From Lentibacter algarum (lineage in GTDB: Bacteria; Pseudomonadota; Alphaproteobacteria; Rhodobacterales; Rhodobacteraceae), in NCBI RefSeq assembly GCF_040580765.1, contig NZ_CP158687.1:2914001-2978000 (forward strand): a stretch of DNA of 64,000 nt. The letters run 5' to 3'. The notes under the pieces were generated by a model. It saw only the letters and a program-made list of their open reading frames with translations. It searched no databases and had not been told where the DNA came from. The translations under genes and the position numbers were made by a program. Positions 8,858-57,625 of the stretch are shown here, piece after piece (position 1 is the stretch's first letter; the number at the start of each line of letters is the position of its first letter).

Positions 8858-8927
8858 GAAAAACTCCCCCGCCTTTCAGCGAGAGAGTGACAGAGCTAGC
8901 ACGTTTGAGAAGCCCTAAAATGTGGCG

Positions 8928-9746: not shown

Positions 9747-9885
9747 ATTTCGCCTCCTAAAGCTGCGTTGCGCAGCGGTACTCGTTATTTTTAATCGCAA
9801 AAAAGCAAATATTTCGTGTTTATTCAACTGCACTTCATCTTTATCAAGTAAACAGTGTGTCTAACTAGGGGTAAATGTTTCGAAA

Positions 9886-11463
9886 ATGGCAAAAATAGCT
9901 TTCATCCTTCTTTGCCATAAAGACCCAGAGGCCATCATCAAGCAGGCCGAGCGCCTCACGGCTGTGGGCGACTATATGTCGATCCACTTTGATGCGCGCG
10001 CCAACCCAGACCATTTCGAAATGATAAAATCCGCGCTTGAGGGCAATCCAAACGTAGCCTTCGCCAAAAAGCGGATCAAATGCGGTTGGGGCGAATGGTC
10101 CTTGGTCCAAGCCACGCTCTACGCCGTCGAAGCCGCTGTTGACGCTTTCCCACGCGCCACGCATTTCTAAATGCTCTCTGGCGATTGCATGGCCATCAAA
10201 TCTGCCGAATACGCCCATGAGTTCCTTGATCGTGCCGATGTCGACTATGTCGAGAGCTTTGACTATTTTGACAGTGACTGGATCAAAACTGGCATGAAAG
10301 AAGAGCGGCTCATCTATCGCCACTTCTTCAACGAGCGGACCCAAAAGCGCCGCTTTTACGCCGCCTTCAATTTTCAGCGCAAACTCGGCCTCACCCGCAA
10401 AATCCCAGAAGATCTCCAGATCCAAATCGGCAGCCAGTGGTGGTGTCTGCGCCGCCGTACTGTCGAATGGATCCTTGATTTCACAAAAAAGCGCCGCGAC
10501 GTCATGCGCTTTTTCAAGACCACGTGGATTCCCGACGAGACATTTTTCCAGACGCTGGTCCGCCACCTCGTCCCCGAAGACGAAATCCAGACCCGCACGC
10601 TCACCTTCCTTATGTTCACCGACTATGGCCTGCCAGTCACGTTTTACAACGATCACTACGATCTTCTGCTCAGTCAGGACTATATCTTCGCCCGCAAGAT
10701 CAGCCCCGAGGCCAAAGAGCTCAAGCGCCGCCTCGGCCTGCTTTACGCAACCCGCGGATGGGATTTCAAAATCTCGAATGAAGGCGCATCTCTCTTCAAG
10801 TTCCTGACAGGACGGGGCCGTATTGGCCGCCGCTTCGGTCTGCGCTTTTGGGAGAACGAAGGCTCCCTTGGCCGCGAGCGCGAAATGCTGATCGTCGTCT
10901 GCAAAAAATGGCACGTCGCCAAACGGCTTGTGGAGCGTATCCGAAAGATGACCAATGTGCCTTGCATCGAGTATCTCTTCAACGAAGAAGGAACGGCCCT
11001 TCCAGACCTTGGCGGCATCCAGTCCACAATGGGCAAGCGTCACCGCCACCGCCGCGCGCTGGTGCGTATGTTGTTTGACTACTACGAAACCGACCAGCTT
11101 GTCGTTTGCATTGATCCGAGCAATCTCGACCTCTTGCAAGACTTCTGCGCCGACCGCTCCAAAACGCGCCTTCTCGAAATCGAGTGCCGCTTCTCTGACG
11201 AATACCTAACAGGTCACGCAAAGCGCGTTGGCCTTGCTGGCGAGAAAACCCCTAAGGAAACGCTAGAGCGCCTGCTTCCCACAATCCGAGCAGATATGGT
11301 TCACGAAAGCGACGAGCTGCGCGACGCCAATTTCGATGGTCACTTCCGTATCCGCGAAACCGAGAGCATCGAGGCCAATGCCGCAGCCCTCGCCCAATTC
11401 CTCGCGGCCACGCCCGAGAAAGCTTATGAAATTGCCAATATTGACTATCTCTTTGCCGATTGA
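9886..11463 (+). pseudogene. Core-2/I-branching-type glycosyltransferase interrupted by an in-frame stop
   Basis: Two adjacent reading frames, 9886-10170 (94 residues) and 10171-11463 (430 residues), lie in the same frame and are separated only by TAA at 10168-10170. Joined, they read ...THF-stop-MLSGDCMAIKS, which matches the Core-2/I-branching beta-1,6-N-acetylglucosaminyltransferase motif HFYMLSGDC, so the TAA replaces a Tyr codon (TAC or TAT). The N-terminus (KIAFILLCHKDPE) starts the GT-A-like fold. The region after about residue 290 is an additional domain found in roseobacter homologues. The gene is probably inactive, unless this is a sequencing error or the stop is read through. Reinitiation at the ATG right after the stop would lack the nucleotide-binding N-terminus. 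Confidence 0.8.
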
Positions 11464-33413: not shown

Positions 33414-34224
33414 GGGTATTGCCAAGTTGTTGGCCGGGTTTGATCAAGCTATGTCGGTCCCATGAACATTCCGACCCATATGCTGCGCCTGAAAGGCTTC
33501 CGCTACCCCCGCGAGATCATTGCTTACGCGGTTTGGGCGTACCATCGCTTTGCACTGAGCACGGCGGATGTCGAGGACCTGTTGGCAGCGCGGGGCGTGG
33601 TTGTCAGCCGTGAGGCGATCCGGCTATGGGTCAATCGCTTTGGGCAACATTTCGTAAACTGCATCCGCCGGGATCGACCGCAACCGAACGACAAATGGCA
33701 TCTTGACGAAGTCGTTATTACAATCCGTGGCAAGAAACATTGGTTGTGGCGCGCGATCGACGCAAATGGCGACGTGCTCGATATTCTCGTGCAAACACGC
33801 CGAAACGCAAAGGCCGCAAAGCGGTTCTTCCAAAGATTGATCACCCTGTTCGGCGAACCACGGGTCGTGATCACCGACAAGTTGCGCAGTTACATCCAGC
33901 CCATCAGTAAACTGGCACCGGGCGCGGATCATCGCGCCCACAAGGGTTTGAACAATGCGATCGAAGTGTCGCACAGGCCGACGCGTAAACGAGAGAAAAT
34001 ATTTGGCCGATTCAAATCCCACCGGCAGGCTCAAAGGTTTCTGTCAGCACATGACCAGATCAACCTGATCTTCCGACCGCGCCGCTATCAACTGAACGCA
34101 ACCTCATACCGCCACGCCCGCACTGATGCGTTCAACCTCTGGTCCGATTACACCGCCGAAATGGCGGCATGATCCAACGGTTGCCAATGTTTCACAATGG
34201 GCCAGCAACAACTTGGCAATACCC
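33414..34224 (+). mobile_element. IS6-family insertion sequence
   Basis: The 811-bp element is bounded by perfect 19-bp terminal inverted repeats GGGTATTGCCAAGTTGTTG (33414 onward, and complementary ending at 34224). It holds a single intact transposase gene. The flanking 8-mers differ (AGCTTGGG left, TTGCAACA right), so there is no target-site duplication. That suggests a deletion or recombination next to the element, in keeping with the replicative mode of IS6 transposition. Confidence 0.9.
33462..34172 (+). CDS. IS6-family transposase
   Basis: A 236-residue DDE transposase with an N-terminal helix-turn-helix (STADVEDLLAARGVVVSREA) and the complete catalytic triad: Asp in WHLDEVVITIRG, Asp in VVITDKLRSY, and Glu in NNAIEVSHRPTRKREK. 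The length is typical of IS6 (230-240). No frameshift or stop is seen, so the element is probably still active. The gene lies 48 bp inside the left repeat. Confidence 0.93.
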   Translation: MNIPTHMLRLKGFRYPREIIAYAVWAYHRFALSTADVEDLLAARGVVVSREAIRLWVNRFGQHFVNCIRRDRPQPNDKWHLDEVVITIRGKKHWLWRAIDANGDVLDILVQTRRNAKAAKRFFQRLITLFGEPRVVITDKLRSYIQPISKLAPGADHRAHKGLNNAIEVSHRPTRKREKIFGRFKSHRQAQRFLSAHDQINLIFRPRRYQLNATSYRHARTDAFNLWSDYTAEMAA

Positions 34225-43193: not shown

Positions 43194-44579
43194 ATGAGCG
43201 ACTATATTGTAAAAGACATCGCGCTTGCGGACTTCGGCCGCAAAGAGCTCAATATTGCAGAAACTGAGATGCCGGGGCTTATGGCTCTGCGCAAGGAGTA
43301 TGGCGAAGACAAGCCGCTCAAGGGCGCGCGTATTGTTGGCTCACTTCATATGACAATTCAAACCGCGGTTTTGATTGAAACGCTGGTCGAGCTTGGCGCG
43401 GATGTCCGTTGGGCATCATGTAATATTTTCTCAACACAAGACCATGCGGCAGCCGCTATTGCACAATCTGGTGTGCCTGTGTTTGCGATCAAGGGTCAGT
43501 CACTTGAGGAGCATTGGGACTATCTTGACCGCTCGTTCATGTTCCCCGAGGGCGCGAATATGATCCTCGATGATGGCGGCGACGCGACACTTTATGTGCT
43601 GCTCGGCGCACGTATGGAAGCGGGCGAAGATGTGCTTGCGGTTCCAACGTCTGAAGAAGAAGAAGTGATCAAGGCGCAAATCAAGAAGCGCATGGCCGAA
43701 ACACCCGGCTGGTTTGCCAAAACACGTGATGCGATTAAAGGCGTTTCAGAAGAGACAACAACCGGCGTTCACCGCCTCTATGATCTGCACAAAAAAGGCC
43801 AGCTGCCTTTCCCTGCGATCAACGTGAACGACTCTGTGACCAAGTCAAAGTTTGATAACAAATACGGCTGTAAAGAGAGCCTTGTTGACGGTATCCGCCG
43901 CGCGACCGACACGATGATGGCGGGTAAAGTAGCGGTTGTTATGGGCTATGGCGACGTTGGCAAAGGCTCTGCGGCAAGCCTGAGCGGCGCTGGTGCGCGT
44001 GTGATTGTGACGGAAGTTGATCCGATCTGTGCGCTTCAAGCTGCCATGGACGGCTATCAGGTGACGACATTGGAAGATGTTGTGGCGACTGCTGATATCT
44101 TTGTGACAACAACAGGCAACAAAGACGTGATCCGCATCGAGCATATGCGCGAAATGAAGGACATGGCGATTGTCGGGAACATCGGTCACTTCGATAACGA
44201 GATTCAAGTCGCTAGCCTGAAGAACCACAAGTGGACCAATATCAAAGAGCAGGTCGATATGATCGAAATGCCCAATGGTAACCGCTTGATCCTCCTGTCT
44301 GAGGGCCGCCTTTTGAATCTTGGCAATGCGACGGGACATCCTTCGTTTGTGATGTCTGCTTCGTTCACAAACCAAGTTTTGGCGCAAATGGAACTTTGGC
44401 TGAAAGGCGAAGAGTATCAGCCCGGTGTCTACATTTTGCCCAAGCATCTGGACGAAAAGGTTGCGCGTCTGCACCTCGATCGTATCGGCGTGAAGCTTTC
44501 AAAACTCGACAAAGAGCAAGCTGATTATATTGGTGTGAGCACAGAAGGGCCGTTCAAGCCCGAGCACTACCGCTACTAA
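43194..44579 (+). CDS. ahcY: Adenosylhomocysteinase
   Basis: Hydrolyses S-adenosylhomocysteine to adenosine and homocysteine. The 461 residues are standard. The substrate-binding segment is [15 protein letters not shown], the catalytic Lys/Asp region is [24 protein letters not shown], and the NAD fold is [19 protein letters not shown]. The C-terminus ends HYRY, as in this family. A 5-bp stem GGCGC/GCGCC lies in the leader, but no SAH riboswitch is recognised. Placed between EPS genes and metK, so that SAM regeneration and use sit together; metK downstream has its own riboswitch. Confidence 0.97.
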
Positions 44580-44621
44580 ATTAGAGATTACGAACAAACA
44601 CTATTTAAAACCACCATACCC

Positions 44622-44671
44622 CTGCCCCACCAACGGCTTCCTGACGGTATCGGCAGACTTTAACTGGAGCA
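44622..44671 (+). promoter_or_regulatory. SAM/SAH riboswitch upstream of metK
   Basis: The leader contains ACC-AACGGCTTCCTGAC-GGT, then after a short linker AACTGGAGCA, 7 bp before the metK ATG. AACGGCTTCCTG and TGGAGCA are the conserved parts of the SAM/SAH riboswitch, a class restricted to Rhodobacterales and found upstream of metK. The stem is CTGCC..ACC / GGT..GGCAG, and TGGAGCA pairs as a pseudoknot and includes the Shine-Dalgarno GGAG. Binding would block translation of metK. Confidence 0.9.
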
Positions 44672-44677
44672 CGTTTC

Positions 44678-45859
44678 ATGACGCGACCTAACTATACATT
44701 TACCTCGGAATCGGTTTCTGAGGGTCACCCGGATAAAGTCTGCGACCGGATTTCTGATGCAGTACTTGATGCCTTTTTAGCCGAGGAGCCTGAGGCGCGT
44801 GTCGCAGCAGAAACATTCGCCACAACAAATCGTGTCATAATTGGCGGCGAAGTCGGGTTATCTGATCCAGATAAGATGAAAGATTACATGGGCCGCATCG
44901 AAGAGATTGCGCGCGCCTGTATCAAAGACATCGGCTACGAGCAGGAAAAATTCCACCACGACACAGTTGAGATCACCAACCTGTTGCACGAGCAGTCGGC
45001 GCATATTGCCCAAGGCGTTGATGCCTCTGCAGACAAAGATGAAGGGGCGGGCGACCAAGGCATTATGTTTGGTTTCGCCACCCGCGAAACAGACGCGTTG
45101 ATGCCTGCACCCATCCAGTATTCGCATGCAATTTTGCGCCGCTTGGCCGAAGTGCGCAAAGACGGCACAGAGCCCGCATTGGGGCCTGATGCTAAGTCAC
45201 AGCTGTCTGTTGAATACCGCGATGGCGTGCCCGTTGGTGTGTCCTCGATCGTGTTGTCGACCCAGCACCTTGATGCCTCAATGAGCAGTGCCGACGTTCG
45301 TGCAGTCGTTGAGCCCTACATTCGCGAAGTGCTGCCCGAGGGGTGGATCTCTGCGGATACCGCTTGGCACGTGAACCCCACTGGCAAGTTTGTGATTGGC
45401 GGGCCTGATGGGGATGCGGGTCTGACAGGCCGCAAGATCATCGTCGACACCTACGGTGGGGCAGCCCCCCATGGTGGGGGTGCGTTTTCGGGGAAAGACC
45501 CTACCAAAGTAGACCGCTCGGCGGCCTACGCAGCGCGTTATCTCGCCAAGAATGTTGTGGCTTCTGGTATGGCTGCGAAATGCGCTATTCAGTTGAGCTA
45601 TGCGATTGGCGTGGCTGAACCACTTTCGATCTATGCTGATACATTTGGCACCGGCGAAGTGGATGATGCGGCGATAGAAAAGGCGATCCGTGCAACGATG
45701 AGCCTGACACCGCGCGGTATTCGCGGACATCTGGGCCTAAACCGTCCGATCTATCAGCGCACAGCGGCCTATGGTCACTTCGGCCGTAGCCCCGAAGCGG
45801 ACGGTGGATTTAGCTGGGAGCGCACGGATCTGGTGGATGCGCTGAAAGCAGCGGTTTGA
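44678..45859 (+). CDS. metK: S-adenosylmethionine synthetase
   Basis: Makes SAM from methionine and ATP. Its 393 residues match the family. The N-terminus [25 protein letters not shown], the ATP-loop [12 protein letters not shown], and [21 protein letters not shown] are characteristic. The P-loop [19 protein letters not shown] follows, with catalytic His and Lys in place. Controlled by the SAM/SAH riboswitch, whose 3' arm covers the ribosome site. In many relatives trmB follows, but here an AT-rich sugar cassette begins instead. Confidence 0.98.
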
Positions 45860-46085: not shown

Positions 46086-47111
46086 ATGCTAGATGTAAAT
46101 TTTTCAAATTATAAAGACTTATTTGAGGATAAAAATGTTCTTATAACAGGTGGCACTGGTTCTTTTGGGAAACAATTTTCTAAAATTATCCTTGAGAACT
46201 TTAAAGTTAAAAAGTTAATAATCTTATCTCGCGATGAAATGAAACAATGGGAAATGAAAGAAACGTTCTCGGAGCACGCCGAAAAGCTCAGATTTTTCAT
46301 TGGTGACGTCCGGGACTTGCAACGTTTGAAGCGAGCTTTCGATGGAGTAGATATCGTAATTCATGCCGCAGCAACTAAAATTGTCCCTACAGCAGAATAT
46401 AATCCTTTTGAATGCATCAAAACGAACATTAACGGCGCCATGAATGTTATCGACGCTTCTATTGATTGTAATGTAAAATCAGTTGTAGCACTCTCAACAG
46501 ACAAAGCTTCCTCGCCCGTTAACTTATACGGCGCAACAAAATTAGCATCCGACAAGTTGTTTGTTGCTGGAAATAATTACTCACAAGTTAATTCAACAAA
46601 ATTTTCTGTAGTGCGGTATGGTAACGTGATGGGTTCAAGAGGTTCAGTAATACCATATTATTTATCTATTAGAAATCAGCGTGCGCTGCCGGTCACACAT
46701 CCAGATATGACACGCTTTATGATTACTTTGGACCAAGGTGTGGAGCTTGTGTTTACAGCACTACAAACAATGGTCGGTGGGGAGATTTATGTGAAAAAAA
46801 TCCCTTCTATGAGAATCAAGGATATTGCGACGCTAATTGGAGGGCCAAATTTCAAATGTGTCGGCATACGTCCAGGAGAAAAAATGCATGAACAGATGAT
46901 CGGTATCGAAGATGCAATTTTTACCTATGAATATAGTACTTATTATAAGATACTACCCCAAATAAATGACTATTACTTAGACGAAAACCGTATCTTATCA
47001 GGAACGAGAGTTTCCGACAATTTTTCGTATTCATCTGACGAAAATAAACATTGGATGGAAGTAGAAGTACTTAAGTCTTGGATCGAAAATAATTATGGAA
47101 TAATTTTATAA
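46086..47111 (+). CDS. PseB-like UDP-GlcNAc 4,6-dehydratase
   Basis: A 341-residue extended SDR. The cofactor motif is ITGGTGSFGKQFSKIIL (about residues 20-36), and the catalytic stretch is STDKASSPVNLYGATKLASD, with the Lys and Tyr-x3-Lys of PseB/FlaA1. In pseudaminate synthesis this enzyme makes UDP-4-keto-6-deoxy-AltNAc by dehydration and C5 inversion. Codon use is AT-rich, unlike metK, which points to transfer. First gene of the AT-rich cassette; AGGAAAG precedes the start, and it overlaps the next gene by 1 base. Confidence 0.87.
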   Translation: MLDVNFSNYKDLFEDKNVLITGGTGSFGKQFSKIILENFKVKKLIILSRDEMKQWEMKETFSEHAEKLRFFIGDVRDLQRLKRAFDGVDIVIHAAATKIVPTAEYNPFECIKTNINGAMNVIDASIDCNVKSVVALSTDKASSPVNLYGATKLASDKLFVAGNNYSQVNSTKFSVVRYGNVMGSRGSVIPYYLSIRNQRALPVTHPDMTRFMITLDQGVELVFTALQTMVGGEIYVKKIPSMRIKDIATLIGGPNFKCVGIRPGEKMHEQMIGIEDAIFTYEYSTYYKILPQINDYYLDENRILSGTRVSDNFSYSSDENKHWMEVEVLKSWIENNYGIIL

Positions 47112-47977
47112 TGTCCGAAAAATGGCTCATTTTCGGTGGTACTGGTATGCTAGGCTCCGCATTAGTACGTGAATTAAATCGCTTTGGTCTGACAGTGATC
47201 ACTGCAGCACGATCAAATGCTGACTACCTTATTGACATGACCGATTATAAATTAATCAGAAGTTGTCTAGAAGAAATAAAACCTAACCGTGTAATTAATT
47301 GTGCTGCCATTACGAATGAAAGGGACTGTTGCAAAAATCCTGGCTTTGCACGCCAGCTTAACTCTTTATCCTTGGAGATACTTTCTACAACATGCGCGCG
47401 TATTGATGCCAAATTAATACAAATTTCAACTGACGCATTTTATCATCGTCATTATATCGAGAATACAGAAGCTAATAATGATTTAAAGTTCCCTACTATT
47501 TACTCTAGCACAAAATACGAAGCAGAACAATTTTGTTCAAATAAGGACTTAATAATTCGAACGACTTTCATCGGACGCAATGATCGAAAAAGCTCACTAT
47601 TAGATTTTTTTGTACGTAGTTTAGTGTCCGGAACAGATATATCCGTGTACAGCGACGCTATCACAAGTTCACTAGATGTCCGGACTTGTGCTAGTCTCAT
47701 TGTTTCGATGGGACAAAGTGAAGCAGCCGGTATCTATAACTTAGGGACGGCATTTCCTTATTCGAAAGCCGAACTTTATTACGAACTAATGCGGCTGTCT
47801 AATAAAGGCAAAATTCCAAAAGAACTTAGATGCGCCCAAGCGCAAGAATATAAAGCAAATCCAAGCCAAGGGATGAATTGTAAAAAAATTACAGATTATC
47901 TTGGTTGTGAACTACCTAGCTTAAAATCAGTAATAACCTTGTTGAAAACTTCAGGAGATTTGGATGATTTACTCTAA
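47111..47977 (+). CDS. RmlD-like sugar-nucleotide reductase (SDR)
   Basis: A 288-residue extended SDR. N-terminus WLIFGGTGMLGSALVREL binds NAD(P), the RmlD-like INCAAITNERDCC and STDAFYH follow, and the YSSTKYEAEQF motif supplies the catalytic Tyr and Lys. RmlD-type enzymes reduce a 4-keto sugar. In this cassette it replaces the aminotransferase PseC at that step, so the product could be a hydroxy rather than amino sugar (inference). It overlaps the upstream PseB gene by 1 base (TAATG) and the downstream synthase by 14 bases. Confidence 0.8.
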   Translation: MSEKWLIFGGTGMLGSALVRELNRFGLTVITAARSNADYLIDMTDYKLIRSCLEEIKPNRVINCAAITNERDCCKNPGFARQLNSLSLEILSTTCARIDAKLIQISTDAFYHRHYIENTEANNDLKFPTIYSSTKYEAEQFCSNKDLIIRTTFIGRNDRKSSLLDFFVRSLVSGTDISVYSDAITSSLDVRTCASLIVSMGQSEAAGIYNLGTAFPYSKAELYYELMRLSNKGKIPKELRCAQAQEYKANPSQGMNCKKITDYLGCELPSLKSVITLLKTSGDLDDLL

Positions 47978-49040
47978 AGAACTAAAAATAAACGGCAGAG
48001 CCATTTCGCAGACTGAACCAACATATTTCATTGCCGATATTGCAGCCAATCATGATGGCGATCTTAATCGTGCGCTAGACCTAATTTCAAGAGCGAAAGA
48101 AGCAGGGGCAAATTGTGCAAAGTTTCAGCATTTTAATTCAGAAACAATTGTAAGTCCATTTGGTTTCTCGAAAAAAGAAAACATGTTGTCGCACCAAAAA
48201 AATTGGGAAAAAAGCGTAACGGACGTCTATGATCAGTATCATACCAAAAAAGAATGGGACCAGGCGTTAGTTCAGCAATGCAAAGCAGTTGAAATTGATT
48301 TTATGACGACGCCATATAATGTGGATGCAATTCAGAGATTGGACCGTTTTCTACCAGCCTACAAAATTGGATCTGGTGACATAACGAATTACTCAATTTT
48401 GCAGGCGGTAGCAAAAAAAGGGAAGCCAGTTTTGCTCGCAGCAGGCGCATCAACATTTTCAGATGTTCGTGATGCGATCGAAGTGCTTTTAGTTGATAAT
48501 GAAGATATCTGTCTCATGCAGTGCAATACAAATTACACTGCGGACCTCGAAAATTTTAAACACATTAACCTGAATGTCCTGAAATCTTTTGCCACCATGT
48601 TTCCTGGTATGCCACTTGGCCTCTCAGATCACACACCTGGCCATACAACCGTTATTGGCGCTGTAGCTCTTGGTGCTCGCGTAATCGAGAAGCACTTCAC
48701 AGATGACTGCAGCAGGATCGGCCCAGATCATAAATTCGCGATGGATCCTGTGACTTGGCGAAACATGGTCCAAGCAACTAGGGAGCTGGAGTTCGCATTA
48801 GGAGATGGTATTAAAAAGATAGAACATAACGAATTGGAAACTGTTTTGATTCAACGTCGTGCTTGTAGACTTCGAAGAACAAAAGAGCTTGGCTCAATCT
48901 TGACTGTAGAAGACTTGGAATTCCTCCGGCCATGCGAGAAAGACGCTTTGAGCCCAATGGATTTTATGAAGTCAAAGGCGAGAAAACTTACTAAATCGAT
49001 CTTGGCGGGTGAATCAATACGGTGGGGCGACCTTGAATAA
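47964..49040 (+). CDS. NeuB/PseI-like nonulosonic acid synthase
   Basis: Condenses a hexosamine derivative with phosphoenolpyruvate to a nine-carbon nonulosonic acid. It has 358 residues. The N-terminal TIM barrel shows FIADIAANHDGDLNRALDL and GANCAKFQHF; the metal-binding and catalytic loop is GLSDHTPGHTTVIGAVALGA. A C-terminal SAF (antifreeze-like) domain (RRACRLRRTKELGSILTVED) covers the last 70 residues. Substrate specificity (Neu, Leg, Pse) cannot be read directly. The gene overlaps the preceding SDR by 14 bases and the next GT2 by a few bases, a tightly coupled cassette. Confidence 0.88.
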   Translation: MIYSKELKINGRAISQTEPTYFIADIAANHDGDLNRALDLISRAKEAGANCAKFQHFNSETIVSPFGFSKKENMLSHQKNWEKSVTDVYDQYHTKKEWDQALVQQCKAVEIDFMTTPYNVDAIQRLDRFLPAYKIGSGDITNYSILQAVAKKGKPVLLAAGASTFSDVRDAIEVLLVDNEDICLMQCNTNYTADLENFKHINLNVLKSFATMFPGMPLGLSDHTPGHTTVIGAVALGARVIEKHFTDDCSRIGPDHKFAMDPVTWRNMVQATRELEFALGDGIKKIEHNELETVLIQRRACRLRRTKELGSILTVEDLEFLRPCEKDALSPMDFMKSKARKLTKSILAGESIRWGDLE

Positions 49041-49698
49041 AATTCTTATTGCTGTGATCTGTTATAATGAAATAAAGACTATTGGGGAATTACTTGACAA
49101 GATAAAATTGTTGCCTTCATTACACAAATTTGATGTCGTTATTTTCGACGACTGCAGCGACGATGGTTCAGTCGAAGTTGTTCAAAAATGTGGATTTAAT
49201 TTCATCACAAACAAAGCTACTCGTGGCTATTCATCCAACGTGATGAATAGTTTCTCGTATTTTATGAATAATGAAGTTTATAATTCTATTATTTTAATGG
49301 ATGCGGATCTCGAACACGATCCGGATTATATTGAATTGTTTATAAATAAATATCCAAACGCTGATCTAGTAATAGGCAATAGAAGTCATAAAAATAGATG
49401 GGCTGAAAATATTTCGGGTGTTTTTTTCAGTCTGATAGGATCTAGAATCGACCCCTTTTGCGGTATGAGGAAAATTTCACGCAGTTTTTTGCAGGAATTC
49501 CTCCAGCATAATAATAGTTACTACGACGGCGTATCCCTGCCGGTATTTTGGGCGAAAACGGCCGCTCATTTTCAACTTCAAAGCTTGCCTATAAAAGTTG
49601 GAGTTAGGCAAGATCTCCCGAGATTTGGAAAAGGTTTAAAGTCTAACCTGAAACTACTATCCGGCTTTGCTAGGGCGCTCAGATATGTCAAATCTTGA
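49033..49698 (+). CDS. Family 2 glycosyltransferase
   Basis: A 221-residue GT-A glycosyltransferase. The N-terminus ILIAVICYNEIKTIGELLDKI and the motif VVIFDDCSDDGSVEVVQKC bind the donor nucleotide. DxD-like acidic positions are in ILMDADLEHDPDY. There is no membrane helix. It could link the cassette's sugar to a lipid or acceptor. The start is TTG at 49033 (GGTGGGG upstream) rather than GTG at 49009. Overlaps its neighbours on both sides. Confidence 0.82.
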   Translation: MNKILIAVICYNEIKTIGELLDKIKLLPSLHKFDVVIFDDCSDDGSVEVVQKCGFNFITNKATRGYSSNVMNSFSYFMNNEVYNSIILMDADLEHDPDYIELFINKYPNADLVIGNRSHKNRWAENISGVFFSLIGSRIDPFCGMRKISRSFLQEFLQHNNSYYDGVSLPVFWAKTAAHFQLQSLPIKVGVRQDLPRFGKGLKSNLKLLSGFARALRYVKS

Positions 49699-50581
49699 TA
49701 GAATTGTTATTGGCACCGCATCTTGGCGGCAGTCTTACGGAACCATAATTCCTGACACAGGTCTCTCCAAAAAAAATATATATAATATATTAGATCGCTT
49801 ATTGGAATTGGGTATAAATAAACTTGATACTGCTGATAGTTATGGAGATGTATTAGAAGTACTCGCCTCATATGAAAATTTAGATAGATTTCATATTGTT
49901 ACGAAGTTCCACTATGATCAATATAATTATCTCAATAGCCGTGATAGCGTACTGAAACAGTACGAGCATCTAGAAAATTCAGCCACTACTTCATTTATGA
50001 TTCACAATCCAAACTGTTGTTATATTAACATGAACGAATTTGTAGAAGAGGTGACGAAGCAGTTCTCATCGAAGCCAACTCACACCAAGTTTGGCGTGTC
50101 GATATACACTCCCGACGAACTTGATGACTGCATGTCTTCTGTCTTTGATCCTCAAATGATCCAGTTACCATTCTGCTTTGGTGACGATCGTTGGAGCCAG
50201 TCATTAGGTCAAGAGAAAACGAGATATGGACACAAACTGGATAATTTAGATTTTTATGCTCGGTCTATTTTTTTGCAGGGAACGCTACTTGAGCGAAAGC
50301 TGACTAATGTCACTGACAATTTGAAGTTGCGAAAAACATTAAAAAATTGGTGGGCTTTTATTGATAAGGAGAGCATTGATCCGTACCAATTGTGTTTAGC
50401 TGCTGTAGTTAAAGCAGATTTTTTGAATTACATAATAGTGGGCTGCAAATCTATCGATGAAATAAATACCCTTGCGAAAATTATTCTATCTGTTGAGCTC
50501 GATGAATATATCAATATTCTTCAAAGCTCATTTACATTTGAAAGAGATATTTTGGACATTCGAACTTGGAATTTGAATTAA
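49685..50581 (+). CDS. Aldo/keto reductase-like protein
   Basis: A 298-residue TIM-barrel protein. Segments recalling the AKR family are the N-terminal VIGTASWRQSYG, NKLDTADSYGDVLEVL (catalytic Asp-x4-Tyr), HIVTKFHYDQY (catalytic Lys), and MIHNPNC (catalytic His). A C-terminal CKSIDEINTL segment resembles the cofactor loop. It would use NAD(P)H for a keto-sugar reduction in the cassette. The start ATG at 49685 lies inside the GT2 gene end; an in-frame start is at 49667. Substrate is unknown. Confidence 0.78.
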   Translation: MSNLDRIVIGTASWRQSYGTIIPDTGLSKKNIYNILDRLLELGINKLDTADSYGDVLEVLASYENLDRFHIVTKFHYDQYNYLNSRDSVLKQYEHLENSATTSFMIHNPNCCYINMNEFVEEVTKQFSSKPTHTKFGVSIYTPDELDDCMSSVFDPQMIQLPFCFGDDRWSQSLGQEKTRYGHKLDNLDFYARSIFLQGTLLERKLTNVTDNLKLRKTLKNWWAFIDKESIDPYQLCLAAVVKADFLNYIIVGCKSIDEINTLAKIILSVELDEYINILQSSFTFERDILDIRTWNLN

Positions 50582-50582
50582 G

Positions 50583-52616
50583 ATGTCAGTGATCCCAATC
50601 ATACAAGCGCGTCTGGGCTCAACACGATTACCAGGTAAGGTTTTGTTACCTATTTTTGATGGGCAGAATGCTATAGATCTTGTGGTCAATCGATTATGGA
50701 GATCGAAGTATGTTACAAGCATTATTTTAGCAACTACGGATGGTCAAGCTGACGATCAGTTAGTGTCTTATGTCCGCTCCAAACATCCTAACGTACAGGT
50801 AATAAGAGGCGACGAAGACGATGTCCTGGGTCGTTTTTATAAAGCCGCAAAAAACTTGACCTCAGATACAGTATTATCGCGTATAACCGCGGATTGCCCG
50901 TTGGTGGACCCAAGATTGTTTGACGAGATGTATGAGCGATTCAATTCTGTCAGCGTCGATTATCTATCAAACACCATTGTTCCAAGTTATCCTGATGGGT
51001 ATGATATCGAATTTTTTCGGGTATGCACACTCGTAAAGGCACATCACGAAGCAACAAGTAGCTATGACAGAGAGCATGTGACACCGTACATGAAGGCTTA
51101 TTTGAGATGTGAGAACTTCGAAAGGCAAGCAGGCAATACAGCCGAATATCGTGCTACACTGGACGAGGCTGATGATTTGCGTTTCTTTATAGAGCTGGCC
51201 TCTGTTGTCGATATTACAACAATTGGATGTGATGAGTTTTGTGAACACATCAGTAGCCGCAAGTCAGAATATTCAAATCAGAAAATATCGAGAAATATGG
51301 GGTCATCAATGTCGAATACAGAAAAACGTTTCAAACGAGCACAAAACGTGATCCTCGGTGGAACAAGTCTATTTTCAAAAAACCCCAATCTTCATCATCC
51401 TAAACGTTGGCCGGGTTATTTCAAATCTGCCAAAGGTATCGAAATTACAGACTTGGCCAACAACTCATGGCGCGATGTATCGTTTATGGGTATTGGTACA
51501 AATATTTTAGGTTATGGCGATGATGATGTTGACGCAGCAGTTCTAGAGGCAGTTTCAAACGGTAACATGTCAACTCTGAACTGCTACGAAGAAGTGGAAC
51601 TGGCGGAGCGGTTACTAGAATTGTTAAATATGGACGGTTTGGTCAAGTTTACACGTAGTGGTGGCGAAGCAAATACTGTTGCACTTCGCATTGCGCGTTC
51701 CGCCACTGGCAAATCAGGAATTGCATTTTGCGGTTATCATGGTTGGCATGATTGGTATCTATCTTCTAATTTAGGAGACAGTGATGCCCTTCAAAAACAT
51801 CTATTAAGCGGGCTATCTACAACAGGAGTTCCTGAATATTTGAGGGGCAAAGTACACCCATTTACCTACAACTCCTGTGAAGAGTTTAACGTCGCTGTGT
51901 CAGGCAATAATGTGGGAACCGTCATTATGGAGCCGATGCGAAACATCAATCCCGCACCCGGGTTCCTAGAACATATTCGACAAGTTTGTACAGCAAAAGG
52001 TATCGTACTAATTTTTGATGAGTGTAGCTCAGGGTTTAGAGAAAATCTTGGCGGTTATTCACAAAATTTCTCGATACAGCCTGACATACAAGTTTTTGGC
52101 AAAACCATAGCCAACGGTTATGCGTTGAACGCCGTGGTAGGCGTACGAGATGTGATGTTAGCAGCCGAATCGTCGTTTATCAGCTCAACGTTTTGGTCAG
52201 AGAGAATTGGATATAGCGCGGCTTTAGCTACGATCAGCAAAATGTCCGCGACTAACTCTTTCAAAAAGGTTCCTAAAATTGGTAAGATAGTCAAACGCCA
52301 GTGGTCGGAGCTATTTAACGCTTATGGACTTGATTGGCGTATTCAAGGAACAGACGCGATACCTAACTTCGTTATCCCAAATGATGCTCAAAATATAATC
52401 AAAACTTATTTAGTTCAAGAAATGTTAGTGAGGGGATGGCTAGCATCGACAGCATTTTATGTGTGCGTCTTACATACCGAACACATTTTGGAGCAATATT
52501 TCTTGGATTTCGAAGCCTGCATTAAAAAAATGGTATCGCATAACCTAAAAGGTATAGACCTGATCACATTAATTGACGGCGATCCATCGATTAGTGGCTT
52601 TAAGCGATTAAATTAA
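50583..52616 (+). CDS. Fusion of SpsF-like cytidylyltransferase and class III aminotransferase
   Basis: A 677-residue two-domain protein. Residues 1-240 match SpsF/CMP-sugar nucleotidyltransferases: VIPIIQARLGSTRLPGKVL, then SRITADCPLVDP, and the PSYPDGYDIEFF and DREHVTPYM segments. Residues 255-677 resemble glutamate-1-semialdehyde aminomutase: FTRSGGEANTVALRIARSATG, CGYHGWHDWY, the PLP Asp in VLIFDECSSGF, and the Schiff-base Lys507 in FGKTIANGYALNAVVG. The hinge has an internal ATG (Met243), so the second domain might also be made alone. It would activate and aminate a sugar in the same cassette, but the reaction is unknown. Confidence 0.83.
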   Translation: MSVIPIIQARLGSTRLPGKVLLPIFDGQNAIDLVVNRLWRSKYVTSIILATTDGQADDQLVSYVRSKHPNVQVIRGDEDDVLGRFYKAAKNLTSDTVLSRITADCPLVDPRLFDEMYERFNSVSVDYLSNTIVPSYPDGYDIEFFRVCTLVKAHHEATSSYDREHVTPYMKAYLRCENFERQAGNTAEYRATLDEADDLRFFIELASVVDITTIGCDEFCEHISSRKSEYSNQKISRNMGSSMSNTEKRFKRAQNVILGGTSLFSKNPNLHHPKRWPGYFKSAKGIEITDLANNSWRDVSFMGIGTNILGYGDDDVDAAVLEAVSNGNMSTLNCYEEVELAERLLELLNMDGLVKFTRSGGEANTVALRIARSATGKSGIAFCGYHGWHDWYLSSNLGDSDALQKHLLSGLSTTGVPEYLRGKVHPFTYNSCEEFNVAVSGNNVGTVIMEPMRNINPAPGFLEHIRQVCTAKGIVLIFDECSSGFRENLGGYSQNFSIQPDIQVFGKTIANGYALNAVVGVRDVMLAAESSFISSTFWSERIGYSAALATISKMSATNSFKKVPKIGKIVKRQWSELFNAYGLDWRIQGTDAIPNFVIPNDAQNIIKTYLVQEMLVRGWLASTAFYVCVLHTEHILEQYFLDFEACIKKMVSHNLKGIDLITLIDGDPSISGFKRLN

Positions 52617-53269: not shown

Positions 53270-54907
53270 GTGATATTAAAGAATATGAAAAAACAAATAG
53301 ACATCCTATTTTTGTTGCCCCGGTGGCTGCTCGCGATCGTGTTCACGCTGCAGGCGTCAGCCGTTGCGCTCGAACTGGTTACCGCGATGTTTGTTGCCGG
53401 TCAGGTCAGTGGTAAGGCGTCTTTTCTCAGTGACATCATACTAAGATACATAGCATCCGATTTGCTGACGACCGTAGTCATCGGGACCATTGCTTTTGCT
53501 TTTTTTGTGCGGCTTATGGCGCTTCACCTGGAAAAGCAGACCGCCCAGAGCTATCGCGCGATACTCTCCAAGGAAACGATTGCTGGATATGGTCGCCAGG
53601 ATTTTAAATCCCTGCTGCTTCGGGACCATTCTGAAATGTCGAAGTCTTTAACCTCGGAAATGGATCTGATGGTCAGCTATTCGGTCGAGAGCATGATCTC
53701 GATCGGCGGCGCCATCCTTTCGCTAATCATCCTGATCATGGCGCTGTGCATCTACAATATGACAACGACGGTGATCACTTTTGGTGCGATCGCTCTGTAT
53801 TTCGTCACCGCCTCCTATATGACTCACCGGATACAGAAGCGGTTTGGAGACAGCGTTCAAAAGGCGTTCCAGCAGCGTCAGCGTAATGCTCAGGAACTGT
53901 TTTTTGACATACGTAAATTCAAGATTGCAGGAGAGCCGACCGAGATCGTTGAGGATTTTGCGCACACCAACCATACCATCACGCAAAGCATAACGCGTTC
54001 GAACACGCTGGGTCAATTCCCGCGAATGTCTCTAGAATCCGCGTTAGTGATTTTGGTTCTCTACGGAACGCAAAAGAATTCCGATGGCTTCGCTCAAATG
54101 TCGGGCGATCTGATTGTATTCGGTCTGGCCGCATTACGGATTTTGCCGATTGTACAGAAAATCTACTTTGCCATTTCCAATCTTGCTTTCAGTGAGAAGC
54201 TGACCATCCATTTTCACGACATCATCTTCGGAAGCGGCGCAAAAGAAGAGTCTACTACGAAGCTTAGCTTTTTCGAAACGCTCCGGATGCAGGATGTCGC
54301 CTATCTGACCTATGACGAAAAAAAACGGATTCAGGTGCCGGATTTTACGATTTCGCGGGGCGAGATCGTTGCCATTGTTGGCCCCTCTGGAACCGGCAAA
54401 ACCACATTCGTCGATGTTCTGGCCGGGCTGCACATCCCGCTCACCGGTAAGGCTTTCATTGATGACAGCCCGCTCGACCAAACCGCAAACAAATATCTGA
54501 ATTTCGGATATGTTACTCAGAAGGCCTCATTGCGTTCGGGGACGGTGGCCAATCTGCTGCGCCGGTCGGGCTATGACGATGCCGAAATGGCACGCGCTAT
54601 CAACATGTTCGAACTGCAAGAAATCTCGCTTGAAAATCCAATCGGCGAAAACGCCCGTAACCTGTCCGGGGGCCAGACCCAGCGTATGAACCTGCTTCAG
54701 AGCATTGGCGCATCGGATCACATTAAGATTTTTGACGAAAGCTTCAACGCAATTGACCCAAACCAGCGGATGCGGATTTTCGACGCCATGCGGGCCCTCG
54801 CGCCAGATCTGACGGGCATTGTCATCACCCATGATCCTGATATTTCAAAACGGTGCGACCGCGTATATCGGTTCAAAGGCAACCAGCTTGTGAGGGTGGA
54901 TAAATGA
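53270..54907 (+). CDS. ABC transporter, fused permease and ATPase (flippase-like)
   Basis: A 545-residue half-transporter. About six membrane helices fill residues 1-300. The ATPase has Walker A GPSGTGKTTF (near 370), signature LSGGQTQRMN (near 465), Walker B IKIFDES, and the H-loop VITHDPD. Its size and layout resemble PglK-type lipid-linked oligosaccharide flippases or glycan exporters. The start is GTG at 53270 with AGGA upstream; ATG at 53285 is an alternative. Its stop overlaps the next gene by 4 bases (ATGA). Base composition is less AT-rich than the preceding cassette. Confidence 0.85.
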   Translation: MILKNMKKQIDILFLLPRWLLAIVFTLQASAVALELVTAMFVAGQVSGKASFLSDIILRYIASDLLTTVVIGTIAFAFFVRLMALHLEKQTAQSYRAILSKETIAGYGRQDFKSLLLRDHSEMSKSLTSEMDLMVSYSVESMISIGGAILSLIILIMALCIYNMTTTVITFGAIALYFVTASYMTHRIQKRFGDSVQKAFQQRQRNAQELFFDIRKFKIAGEPTEIVEDFAHTNHTITQSITRSNTLGQFPRMSLESALVILVLYGTQKNSDGFAQMSGDLIVFGLAALRILPIVQKIYFAISNLAFSEKLTIHFHDIIFGSGAKEESTTKLSFFETLRMQDVAYLTYDEKKRIQVPDFTISRGEIVAIVGPSGTGKTTFVDVLAGLHIPLTGKAFIDDSPLDQTANKYLNFGYVTQKASLRSGTVANLLRRSGYDDAEMARAINMFELQEISLENPIGENARNLSGGQTQRMNLLQSIGASDHIKIFDESFNAIDPNQRMRIFDAMRALAPDLTGIVITHDPDISKRCDRVYRFKGNQLVRVDK

Positions 54908-56196
54908 TTTTAGGCCTTTCAGGCTTCGACGCCACGATCACGGCAGCCATAAAAGGCGCCTACGCGGGAGAGCTGCTGACCCTCGAGGATCTCGGGTTCG
55001 ATATGGCATCCTCCGACAAGGGCCTGGTGGATCTTAATACGGCTTACCCCATCGCCCCCGTTCACGATCTGACGGTTGATCAGCTGCGCCTGCTGAAGGC
55101 CGATTTTGACCACTATTCGACCCGCCGTCGGCTAATACTCAATCACGAAGAGCAGAATATGCTGTTTCTTCACATCTTGGCGCGCCTTGCGGACTATTTG
55201 GACCGCGTAAATGCGCTTCTGTTGAGCAACCTGCCCCATCAGGGCACCGATGCGATTTTATCACGACTGGCGCAGATTAGATCCGTACCGGTTTGGTATT
55301 TCACCCCTAGTATCTTTGATGGCTACGCCTATCTCTCCAAATCCTGCAACAAGTTTTATAAAGAGTTGGAAAAGAACGCTAATCCGCCGCAAATTTCGAT
55401 CGACAACACTGCCAAACAGTCGGTCACCTACATGGACCCCGTTTCGGGCGTGCCGCCGATAAAACGTCTGGGCTCAAAGCTCAATACGTTCCGTGAGTTT
55501 CGCCAGTACTCCAAAGACTATGCGGCTAGACTATTTCTGCGCCCGCTATTGTCACGACATTTCCATAGGGCTTATCGAAGGATGCCGTGGCAGAAAGATT
55601 TTCATCCCGATCACTCCGCTGATCATCTAAATATATACTTCCCGCTCCATCTTCAGCCAGAACTCACAACCTCGTTCATGGGTCAGGCCTATAGTGATCA
55701 GTGCCTCGCAATTTCGACTTTGGTGGCAGTCCTGAAATCCCAAGACCAGGCCTTCACGATCTACGTCAAGGAAAACCCGAAACAGTCTTTTGACCAGCGC
55801 CAATTTCTGCATCTGTTGCAGTCGGACGAGGTGATTATGATCGACCGAACCGTACCTTCCAACAGGCTGATCGAAGAGTGCGATATCGTCGCAACGATAA
55901 CCGGCACTGCCGGTTGGGAAGCGGTGAAAAGCGGTAAACCTGCGCTGATATTTGGCACGACCTGGTATGAAAATGCGCCCGGCGTCATCGTCTTTGATGA
56001 TCTGCTGACGCAGAAGGCCTTGATTTCGAAGGCTCCAGTAGACTCCGCCCTTGTCAACCAGTGGTTCAGTGCGCATCTGTCGGCTCTGCACGCCGGGCAG
56101 TTCGACCCCGATCAGAAATCCTTTGCCCCGTTCTTTGATCGCTCTGTTGACACGGTCGTCGGCATTCTTGACAAAATGAACGAAGGTAGGGCCTGA
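54904..56196 (+). CDS. Capsule polysaccharide biosynthesis-type protein (KpsS/Capsule_synth-like), copy 1
   Basis: A 430-residue protein with no membrane segment. The C-terminal half resembles the Capsule_synth family: YFPLHLQPELTTSFMGQAY, then IYVKENPKQSFDQRQFLHLL and TITGTAGWEAVKSGKPALIF, a GT-B-like nucleotide-binding pattern. KpsS and KpsC act as Kdo transferases in capsule initiation, but this subfamily differs and its reaction is not known. The gene overlaps the ABC transporter by 4 bases; a divergent relative follows 1 bp downstream. Confidence 0.72.
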   Translation: MILGLSGFDATITAAIKGAYAGELLTLEDLGFDMASSDKGLVDLNTAYPIAPVHDLTVDQLRLLKADFDHYSTRRRLILNHEEQNMLFLHILARLADYLDRVNALLLSNLPHQGTDAILSRLAQIRSVPVWYFTPSIFDGYAYLSKSCNKFYKELEKNANPPQISIDNTAKQSVTYMDPVSGVPPIKRLGSKLNTFREFRQYSKDYAARLFLRPLLSRHFHRAYRRMPWQKDFHPDHSADHLNIYFPLHLQPELTTSFMGQAYSDQCLAISTLVAVLKSQDQAFTIYVKENPKQSFDQRQFLHLLQSDEVIMIDRTVPSNRLIEECDIVATITGTAGWEAVKSGKPALIFGTTWYENAPGVIVFDDLLTQKALISKAPVDSALVNQWFSAHLSALHAGQFDPDQKSFAPFFDRSVDTVVGILDKMNEGRA

Positions 56197-56197
56197 A

Positions 56198-57625
56198 ATG
56201 ACCGACAAGAGCATTAAAAAAACTTTTCTGTTCCTGCTTTCGGACGCCCCGGGGTTTTGCGAGTTTTTCCCGATGGTAGGCGCTGAGCTGCAGCGTCAGG
56301 GCCACGATGTGATCTATGCCTCGGATTCAAACCACGTCACCTTTCTGGCCCGGCATTTTCACCCGACCCTGCGAATCTCCGAGCTGGGTGATTTCGCCAC
56401 ACGACGCAGCGAGACCCCTTTTATCATCAACCGAGGCGGTTTGGCCGACTGGGAACGCGTCATTCATTTCTTCAAGCCTGACGCGAAAGCCAAGGCCGCC
56501 TTTAAATTTAACATGCTTTATGCAAGCGCATTTCCAGCACAGCTATACGAGAAGGATGCATTTGACGTTGTGGTCTCGGAATCGCCAGCAGGGATCTATA
56601 CCGCGTCCTTTTTTGAATTCTGCAAACAAAAAGGCATCGCCTGGGTCGGGTTCGAGGCCTCGCGTATCAGCGGTTATTGGGAGTTCCCCGATAGCGATAT
56701 TGCGTTTGAAACCGATGACTCCGAGCTGATGAGTCAGGTGCGAGATTATGTGTATAGAACATCTGGGTCCAAGATCAGCGCGCCAAGCTACATGAATGAT
56801 AAGAGCCTGGTGAGCCTAACTAATGTCAGCCTGGCAGCTCGGCTGATGGGCATCAAAAAGCTGAAAGAATACAATCTTATATTGCACTCAACCTGGGCTG
56901 GTAACCGCACGTTTTTCGGCAATCGTCCAACCAAGAAATACCTTGAAAACTTCCGAAGGCTTCTGTTGCGCAAAGCCCGAATGTTGGTGGCAAAGGTGTT
57001 TAGAGCGGAACACGCCCCCTTGCCGGAGCAATCGGTCAAGACGATCTTTTACCCGCTGCATTTTCATCCCGAAGCCTCAACTTCAATGGCGGCGGCGCAA
57101 TTTCTAGACGAATATGATATGCTGTTCTTCCTTGCCACGCAAGTAGACGGCGATACCAGTATGTTTGTGAAGGAACATCCGTCTATGGCAGGGCTGCGAT
57201 CAGCGGCGCAAGCCCGTGCCCTTGCTGCACTGCCCACCGTCACCTTGGTGGAGCCTTCGGTCAAATCAGTAGAGTTAATCGACCGCTGCGATCTGATCTT
57301 GGCGCTGACCAGCACCGCGGCGCTGGAGGCGCTAATGCGCGGTAAGCCGGTGGTCGCTTTGGGAGACGTCTTTTTTAATTCGCACCGCAATTGCCGATTT
57401 GCGCGCAGCAAGTCCGAAGCGCTGGAAATGATTGCAGAGTATTTCAACGGCAGATGGGCCACCGAACTTGATGGCATTGAAGACTACAATACCACTTTTA
57501 TTAAATCGCACTTGCGGGGGGCCCTTCGGTTCGAGCTGGGATTCTACGATGCTGACGAGTTCCATGAGAAGGCCCCGTTGCTCGCCAAAGAGCTGGCGCG
57601 TGCGCGGTACGATGTCCATGGCTGA
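56198..57625 (+). CDS. Capsule polysaccharide biosynthesis-type protein, copy 2
   Basis: A 475-residue paralogue of the preceding gene. Corresponding segments are FYPLHFHPEASTSMAAAQFL, then MFVKEHPSMAG, and LALTSTAALEALMRGKPVVA. The N-terminus FLFLLSDAPGFCEFFPMVGAEL looks like a GT-B donor fold. Tandem copies probably transfer successive sugars or work as a pair, as KpsC/KpsS do. Overlaps the next glycosyltransferase by 14 bases. Confidence 0.72.
   Translation: MTDKSIKKTFLFLLSDAPGFCEFFPMVGAELQRQGHDVIYASDSNHVTFLARHFHPTLRISELGDFATRRSETPFIINRGGLADWERVIHFFKPDAKAKAAFKFNMLYASAFPAQLYEKDAFDVVVSESPAGIYTASFFEFCKQKGIAWVGFEASRISGYWEFPDSDIAFETDDSELMSQVRDYVYRTSGSKISAPSYMNDKSLVSLTNVSLAARLMGIKKLKEYNLILHSTWAGNRTFFGNRPTKKYLENFRRLLLRKARMLVAKVFRAEHAPLPEQSVKTIFYPLHFHPEASTSMAAAQFLDEYDMLFFLATQVDGDTSMFVKEHPSMAGLRSAAQARALAALPTVTLVEPSVKSVELIDRCDLILALTSTAALEALMRGKPVVALGDVFFNSHRNCRFARSKSEALEMIAEYFNGRWATELDGIEDYNTTFIKSHLRGALRFELGFYDADEFHEKAPLLAKELARARYDVHG

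Follow-up and report, generated by a model that had tools for sequence, protein, structure and literature searches.

A gene cassette of Lentibacter algarum proposed to make a nonulosonic acid by a branch other than the pseudaminic, legionaminic and neuraminic acid pathways

The DNA considered here (the window, 64,000 bases) covers bases 2914001–2978000 of the one-contig genome of Lentibacter algarum (3,281,784 bases, 99.99% complete). At window positions 46086–52616 it carries a cassette of six genes, proposed to produce a nonulosonic acid (NulO) in CMP-activated form along a branch other than those of pseudaminic (Pse), legionaminic (Leg) and neuraminic (Neu) acids. Taken whole, with its amine at C8, this scheme stands just short of an even chance. 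The predicted product is a CMP-activated 5-N-acyl, 7-hydroxy, 8-amino, 9-deoxy nonulosonic acid, to which no stereochemistry is assigned; the free acid is predicted to be C11H20N2O7 (292.127 Da) if N5 is acetylated, a mass shared by mono-N-acetyl Pse, and its precursor ahead of the amination step would have 293.111 Da. The reactions are predicted from the genes, their intact-looking motifs, the three Pse genes missing at model cut-offs, the synthase clade and a near-exclusive gene pattern. The cassette is filed under nonulosonic acid biosynthesis, as not Pse, Leg or Neu.

The cassette consists of six open reading frames (ORFs), all confirmed in place. They are listed here with their best profile scores.

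46086–47111, + strand: PseB, UDP-GlcNAc 4,6-dehydratase (5-inverting); TIGR03589, 490.9 bits, above the equivalog cut-off of 407.75; PF02719, 317.9 bits.
47111–47977, + strand: RmlD-like short-chain dehydrogenase/reductase (SDR), predicted C4-keto reductase in the place of PseC; PF04321 RmlD_sub_bind, 91.7 bits.
47964–49040, + strand: NeuB′, the name used here for a nonulosonic acid synthase of NeuB type that falls in a clade of its own; NeuB, 240.8 bits.
49009–49698, + strand: short family 2 glycosyltransferase (GT2) with a GT-A fold, candidate enzyme for release or transfer of the UDP-bound sugar; PF00535 Glycos_transf_2, 66.2 bits.
49667–50581, + strand: aldo/keto reductase, predicted C8 oxidoreductase; PF00248 Aldo_ket_red, 61.7 bits.
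50583–52616, + strand: fusion of an SpsF-type cytidylyltransferase (residues ~1–230) and a class-III aminotransferase (~240–677); CTP_transf_3, 78.7 bits; Aminotran_3, 100.6 bits.

Successive ORFs overlap by 1, 14, 32 and 32 bases, and a gap of 1 base precedes the fusion ORF. The 32-base overlaps may be smaller, because for the GT2 (GTG) and the reductase (TTG) the start codon giving the longest ORF was taken. A preliminary description, made from the sequence alone, had reported six tightly overlapping genes on one strand, and the profile searches confirm both the ORFs and their families. The catalytic residues of the SDR, the reductase and the fusion look intact. S106, T107, Y131, K135, G9 and G12 of the SDR are invariant in 20 aligned members, D54, Y59, K80 and H113 of the reductase in 14, and 22 aligned relatives of the fusion all share R15, K19 and K507, among other residues; we take these residues to have catalytic roles.

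In the proposed pathway, PseB would convert UDP-GlcNAc to a 6-deoxy-4-keto sugar, a step well supported by the family assignment. At C4, where PseC would install nitrogen, the SDR would instead reduce the keto group to a hydroxyl, as its family and the near-exclusive gene pattern suggest. UDP would then be removed, possibly by the GT2 as the best candidate, and NeuB′ would add phosphoenolpyruvate (PEP) to give a 9-deoxy NulO with oxygen at C7. By analogy with EpaA/EpaB (see below), the reductase would oxidize C8 and the aminotransferase domain would place an amine there; with an aminotransferase instead of an EpaB-like SDR, the 8-keto intermediate would become the 8-amine. The fused SpsF domain would add CMP, and Capsule_synth-type proteins encoded downstream would transfer the sugar into a surface polysaccharide.

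Three of the canonical Pse genes, those for PseC, PseH and PseG, are not found above cut-off in the genome. Over the whole contig, PseG has zero matches, the best score to PseC is 144.6 bits (a DegT protein; cut-off 423.5) and the best score to PseH is 23.4 bits (a GNAT protein; cut-off 93.1). The hydrolysing 2-epimerase family of NeuC and LegG (Epimerase_2, PF02350) and the AGE-type family (GlcNAc_2-epim, PF07221) also have zero matches in the whole genome. The searches do work, since the same ones find members in control genomes (PseC in 13 of 14, PseH in 13, PseG in 5, Epimerase_2 in 11 and AGE in 2). Copies elsewhere, which the preliminary description had named, if expressed to match, as fatal to its scheme, were thus looked for, and no PseC, PseH or PseG lies above cut-off anywhere in the genome.

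The gene pattern was compared across 25 NeuB′ loci (cited by L number) and 41 loci with a Pse-type synthase. A search by the synthase alone finds NeuB′ loci in 9 of 385 genomes at class level and 6 of 398 at phylum level (L. algarum counts in both sets), as well as on a Maritalea plasmid. Of the 25, 14 were picked by NeuB′ alone and 10 through the fusion, which biases the reductase and aminotransferase counts. The 41 Pse-synthase loci come from the best 80 fusion loci by score, which are not a random draw; 51 of these were classed by synthase, and the 29 in neither class were excluded. Several locus contigs are short. Thresholds were >300 bits for PseB and PseC, >60 for PseG and >160 for the GT2.

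At the NeuB′ loci, PseB is found at 18, the SDR at 21, the GT2 at 19, SpsF at 20, the reductase at 14 and the aminotransferase at 11 (over 500 bits; 12 over 200), while by profile score in the available stretches PseC and PseG are found at none. At the Pse-synthase loci, PseB is found at 33, PseC at 35, PseG at 32 and the reductase at 40, and the SDR and GT2 at none. Because NeuB′ loci served to build the SDR and GT2 profiles, the presence of both genes there is partly by construction, and their absence at the Pse loci is the fairer half of the comparison; Fisher p values for the pattern ignore kinship. In 19 of the 20 loci where the spacing was measured, the SDR gene immediately precedes NeuB′ (−46 to +34 bases); L059 and Maritalea lack an SDR of the profile and have another, Epimerase-type SDR nearby. 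Two Pelagibacteraceae loci (L050 and L060) have exactly the gene order of the window, and the core is also found in distant microbes. The placing of the SDR where PseC would act, first suggested from this cassette alone, thereby recurs as a pattern linked to a NeuB clade of its own. The accompanying idea of oxygen rather than nitrogen at C7 gains comparative support from it, with the chemistry of the product at the level of prediction.

The synthase falls below the cut-offs of both PseI (215.4 bits, cut-off 340.25) and NeuB_NnaB (263.5 bits, cut-off 399.65). In a tree of 85 synthases, NeuB′ forms one clade of 25 rows including that of the window (support 100/99). The Pse rows form a branch of their own (100/100), and the references for Leg (only two, 100/100) and Neu (only one) fall elsewhere. 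The phylogeny that the preliminary description had proposed thus places NeuB′ outside all three known groups. As expected of a NulO synthase, NeuB′ keeps the residues that we take to bind PEP and metal; the solved structures nearest to it are NulO synthases, and a predicted CMP-activating domain, the CTP_transf_3 part of the fusion, is encoded nearby. The active site has the glycine of Neu and Leg synthases where all 42 Pse rows have phenylalanine. Residue counts omit two long-branch rows, and 9 of the remaining 83 rows belong to no group and are uncounted. Such a glycine fits a Neu/Leg-like orientation at C2 (PMC7371886; for this and the other papers cited, statements refer to the parts available).

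Just outside the NeuB′ clade is a synthase of Bacteroides stercorirosoris (265 bits), encoded with PseB, SpsF and an aminotransferase at L084 (8982–13137). This locus has no SDR, GT2 or reductase above threshold and is possibly of an intermediate type. Near NeuB′ at L096, L100, L102 and L113 is a small protein family (208–221 amino acids); Pfam matches its L102 member to a methyltransferase and has no match for its L096 member.

RmlD-like 4-reductases are known. The SDR scores 86.9 bits against the rmlD model TIGR01214, below its cut-off of 224.05. N20, E21, D48, D98 and D100 of the GT2 show no variation among 14 members. The predicted model of the GT2 (pLDDT 89.8) is closest to UDP-bound ArnC (TM score 0.78, 21% identity), followed by dolichyl-phosphate mannose synthase and glucosyl-3-phosphoglycerate synthases. 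The GT2 may lack the membrane part of ArnC, as it is more than 80 residues shorter. It is the best candidate for the removal of UDP, because some of its relatives use UDP-sugars and the product of PseB and the SDR is the only UDP-sugar expected from the core; otherwise it may transfer that sugar. This assignment is tentative and is the weakest link of the scheme.

The fusion has domain matches to PF02348 at residues 6–172 and to PF00202 at residues 281–581. Its aminotransferase domain scores 104.6 bits against solved sugar C-6′ aminotransferases and 110 bits against glutamate-1-semialdehyde (GSA) aminomutases. Of 7997 candidates scored in a protein search with the fusion, 7945 have E≤1e-20, and a scan of named genomes confirmed at least 578 of 588 stretches as carrying it. 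Among the matches listed, those beyond the six closest relatives are full-length fused proteins with 43–47% identity. The best 80 fusion loci come from Prochlorococcus, Pelagibacteraceae, SAR86, SAR116, Bacteroidota, Bacillota, Cyanobacteriota and others; SpsF and the aminotransferase are separate, adjacent genes in some Bacteroidota, Bacillota and other loci, and in the archaeon Halorussus. Among 939 plasmid records, 2 cover 80% of the fusion, and none of 34 phage records does; the useful records from these searches are those of Pseudosulfitobacter and Halorussus. The order on the Pseudosulfitobacter plasmid pSMR1-1 is pseB, pseC, aldo/keto reductase, GNAT, an unknown gene, fusion, pseG and pseI.

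Neighbor families at the fusion loci include PseC (572 bits), PseG (326 bits) and a PseH-resembling GNAT (45 bits, below the cut-off of 93). The reductase accompanies the fusion at 72 of the 80 loci. Of the 51 classed, 41 have a Pse-type synthase and 10 are of the window type. The fusion is therefore widespread and stands mostly beside Pse-type synthases; in correction of the preliminary description, it is not rare and does not belong to the replacement. It was also considered as the novelty of the cassette, and rejected on the search counts above. The aminotransferase domain as a substitute for PseC was likewise rejected, as 35 of the 41 Pse-synthase fusion loci also have PseC.

The reductase and aminotransferase look like a separate tailoring module, placed here at C8. 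Being found with both Pse-type and NeuB′-type synthases, the module would act on a site common to both products. No publication on the gene set or on the function of the SpsF–aminotransferase fusion is among the literature matches listed, whose coverage excludes most subscription journals, and the parts of PMC13317340 and PMC5109656 available to a text look-up contain none of the terms aldo, semialdehyde, SpsF, aminomutase and class III.

In ocean bacteria, two Prochlorococcus loci (L033 and L035) and several Pelagibacteraceae loci carry the reductase–SpsF–aminotransferase set with Pse-type genes. At L006 (SAR86, 8421–10001), a CTP_transf_3 domain is fused to an aldo/keto reductase right before the SpsF–aminotransferase fusion, giving two cytidylyltransferases in one locus.

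The placement at C8 rests on a published precedent. EpaA, a fusion of CTP_transf_3 and Aldo_ket_red domains, and EpaB, an adh_short_C2 SDR, together turn Pse into 8-epi-Pse in an Acinetobacter baumannii capsule, as seen by nuclear magnetic resonance (PMC12053666). Amination at C8 is predicted here because this cytidylyltransferase–reductase fusion acts at C8 together with EpaB. Both systems have an aldo/keto reductase and a CTP_transf_3 domain, which in EpaA work on a NulO. The cassette, however, has the two in separate proteins: its cytidylyltransferase is fused to an aminotransferase, its reductase is unfused, and its SDR is of the RmlD type (PF04321), whereas EpaB is a classical SDR. The reductase of the window and EpaA were compared by domain make-up only. 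A natural 8-amino NulO is reported for Flexibacter maritimus (PMC3210612); no Tenacibaculum is among the 120 protein-search matches listed, of which only some bear names.

At the Maritalea NeuB′ locus, CTP_transf_3, Aldo_ket_red and BNR domains are joined in one protein, which lies beside an adh_short_C2 SDR; NeuB′ is about 3.4 kb from this fusion, across the plasmid origin. The protein (L118, 3298–6045, Maritalea myrionectae plasmid pHL2708Y3) thus has a cytidylyltransferase, a reductase and a sialidase-like BNR repeat domain, and the joining of cytidylyltransferase to BNR is odd. In searches for EpaA, which did not find it, the Maritalea query has 0 matches in phages and the L006 query 1 (a Moritella cytidylyltransferase), and among the plasmid matches listed (20 of 79 records) none covers 80% of the query.

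With the Pse pathway, the cassette shares PseB (above cut-off), a NeuB-type synthase, a cytidylyltransferase and the operon layout, and the same reductase and fusion occur in Pse-type clusters. It differs in that its genome lacks PseC, PseG and PseH above cut-off, its synthase is outside the Pse clade, and the RmlD-like SDR and the GT2 are present instead. The active-site glycine is shared with the Leg and Neu pathways, whereas the genome has no PF02350 or AGE match and NeuB′ belongs to another clade. In a Pse cluster of Vibrio B9-25K2, an SpsF-type cytidylyltransferase linked to an aldo/keto reductase is encoded after PseC; this cluster differs in having PseB, PseC and PseG, and the available part of the paper mentions no class-III aminotransferase (PMC7371886). 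Overall, the PseC replacement of the preliminary scheme stands as a gene pattern, the fusion proves not to be part of that replacement, and a gap is left before NeuB′, where no known UDP-removing enzyme was found.

Several observations weigh against the proposed pathway. The missing UDP-sugar hydrolase is one, and the DegT protein elsewhere in the genome, with its 144.6 bits to the PseC profile, is another. Of the 14 loci selected through NeuB′ only, 3 have the reductase and 1, L112, has the aminotransferase (302 bits; 0 loci exceed 500 bits). By gene content over the loci compared, the core is PseB, SDR, NeuB′, GT2 and SpsF, with the reductase and aminotransferase as an addition. A related SDR (237 bits) is present at L034, which has PseC and PseG, and weaker ones (157–230 bits) stand beside Pse synthases at L031, L057 and L078. 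Other DegT genes, which score 182–203 bits with the PseC profile, neighbor 6 of the 25 NeuB′ loci (L015, L027, L099, L100, L102 and L114), so that C7 may carry nitrogen at some of them. The GT2 is missing at 6 of the 25 (L015, L021, L071, L081, L101 and L112), one of which ends at a contig edge just past NeuB′. PseH-like GNATs lie near four (L015, L081, L101 and L112), at the last three of which the GNAT follows NeuB′ in the stead of the GT2. The NeuB′ glycine fits a Neu/Leg-like C2 orientation, yet no 2-epimerase family has a match in the genome. Finally, two glutamates present in all 49 Pse, Leg and Neu rows are aspartates in NeuB′ (25 of 25 and 24 of 25 rows), for which reason its substrate use may differ more than assumed.

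Two alternatives survive best, each of them unlikely. The cassette may serve two products, with PseB, the SDR and the GT2 making and using a UDP-6-deoxy-HexNAc, and NeuB′, the reductase and the fusion making a NulO from some other six-carbon precursor. Pairs of a dehydratase and an RmlD-like 4-reductase that make 6-deoxy-HexNAc are known. The GT2 resembles UDP-sugar transferases, the Neu/Leg-type glycine would suit such a precursor, and 7 of the 25 NeuB′ loci, in part on short contigs, have no PseB (>300 bits) in the available stretch. On the other side, the SDR is tied to NeuB′ itself, which it abuts in nearly every locus measured, and a source of N-acetylmannosamine from the Epimerase_2 or AGE families was not found in the genome.

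An improbable alternative of similar weight keeps the same NulO branch and lets the reductase–aminotransferase pair act at another carbon, epimerize C8 or make an N-acyl group. It draws on the O-antigen cluster of Legionella serogroups Sg6 and Sg12, annotated with PseG, a GSA aminomutase, a cytidylyltransferase, an aldo/keto reductase, DegT, CapD and NeuB (PMC3694923). The NulO reported for Legionella non-1 serogroups is a 5-acetamidino-7-acetamido sugar without an 8-amine (PMC3210612). A like pair may therefore go with a NulO that has no 8-amine, which also counts against the C8 amine proposed here, although the two reports may concern different strains. EpaA and EpaB yield an 8-epimer and not an amine, and the L006 reductase is fused to a second cytidylyltransferase. 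For the 8-amine speak the occurrence of the pair with both synthase types, for which a shared site is expected and the C8 hydroxyl is such a site, the aminotransferase in the place of EpaB, which would give an amine, and the existence of an 8-amino NulO.

Ordinary Pse made with unlinked or unrecognized PseC, PseH and PseG, for which the sub-threshold DegT and GNAT proteins elsewhere in the genome could be invoked, is very unlikely, as the one-contig genome has zero PseG matches and only below-cut-off PseC and PseH matches, NeuB′ is outside the Pse clade, and PseC (>300 bits) and PseG (>60 bits) are also missing from the available stretches of the 24 other NeuB′ loci, though PseH-like GNATs stand at four. 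It is equally hard to credit that NeuB′ only resembles a NulO synthase and produces another ulosonic acid, starting for instance from a sugar that is phosphorylated or not acetylated: the two aspartates and the many other positions that differ from Pse synthases would fit, and against it stand the kept residues taken to bind PEP and metal, the nearest solved structures and the SpsF nearby at 20 of 25 loci.

The proposed NulO branch could have a wider meaning, which is doubtful at present: a further major NulO family (9-deoxy, 7-hydroxy, 8-amino) with a dedicated synthase clade, a GT-A-fold GT2 as a new UDP-sugar hydrolase, and a swappable C8 module in which a reductase with an aminotransferase gives an amine and a reductase with an SDR gives an epimer. 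If the branch is as proposed, some SAR11, SAR116 and other microbes would have among their surface sugars a NulO type that gene prediction limited to Neu, Leg and Pse misnames. It would also supply a compact, testable set of genes behind a new sugar, perhaps a UDP-sugar hydrolase of a new class, and a rule governing C8 tailoring in bacteria.

The cassette is AT-rich, as first described: the GC fraction is 0.371, 0.394 and 0.412 over 46–52 kb, compared to 0.549 and 0.527 directly to the left (42–46 kb). The SpsF–aminotransferase fusion is found at E≤1e-60 in 2 of 100 genomes (L. algarum and 99 relatives), its own and one other, and in 0 of 6 congeners. The low GC content and this distribution suggest that the block was acquired.

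The cassette lies inside a polysaccharide locus that runs from about 37.6 kb to the end of the window, with a Glycos_transf_4 (WecA-like) gene, NusG-family and MarR-like genes, transferases, a GDP-mannose dehydratase and a fucose-synthase-like gene. Three genes downstream of the cassette may take part in export and transfer.

53270–54907, + strand: PglK/MsbA-like ABC transporter, possible glycan exporter; PF00005, 77.3 bits; NF050066 PglK, 129.9 bits, below the cut-off of 1000.
54904–56196, + strand: Capsule_synth-family protein, candidate CMP-nonulosonate transferase; PF05159, 33.8 bits (cut-off 20).
56198–57625, + strand: Capsule_synth-family protein, candidate CMP-nonulosonate transferase; PF05159, 39.5 bits (cut-off 20); NF046086 BFO_1060, 43.7 bits, below the cut-off of 200.

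Capsule_synth proteins are known as ulosonate transferases. Relatives of the transporter are found near 7 other NeuB′ loci, relatives of the first Capsule_synth protein at two (L059 and L103), and a relative of the second at L112.

Directly left of the cassette, in the polysaccharide locus, are adenosylhomocysteinase-like and S-adenosylmethionine synthetase-like ORFs (43194–45859, + strand), as judged by eye from their translations. An IS240-type transposase (33462–34172, + strand; PF13610, 116.5 bits) lies left of the polysaccharide locus, and the adjoining region of 34.2–37.6 kb is without long ORFs. Far from the locus, at 8928–9833 on the − strand, is a sulfotransferase-family protein (PF03567, 131.7 bits).

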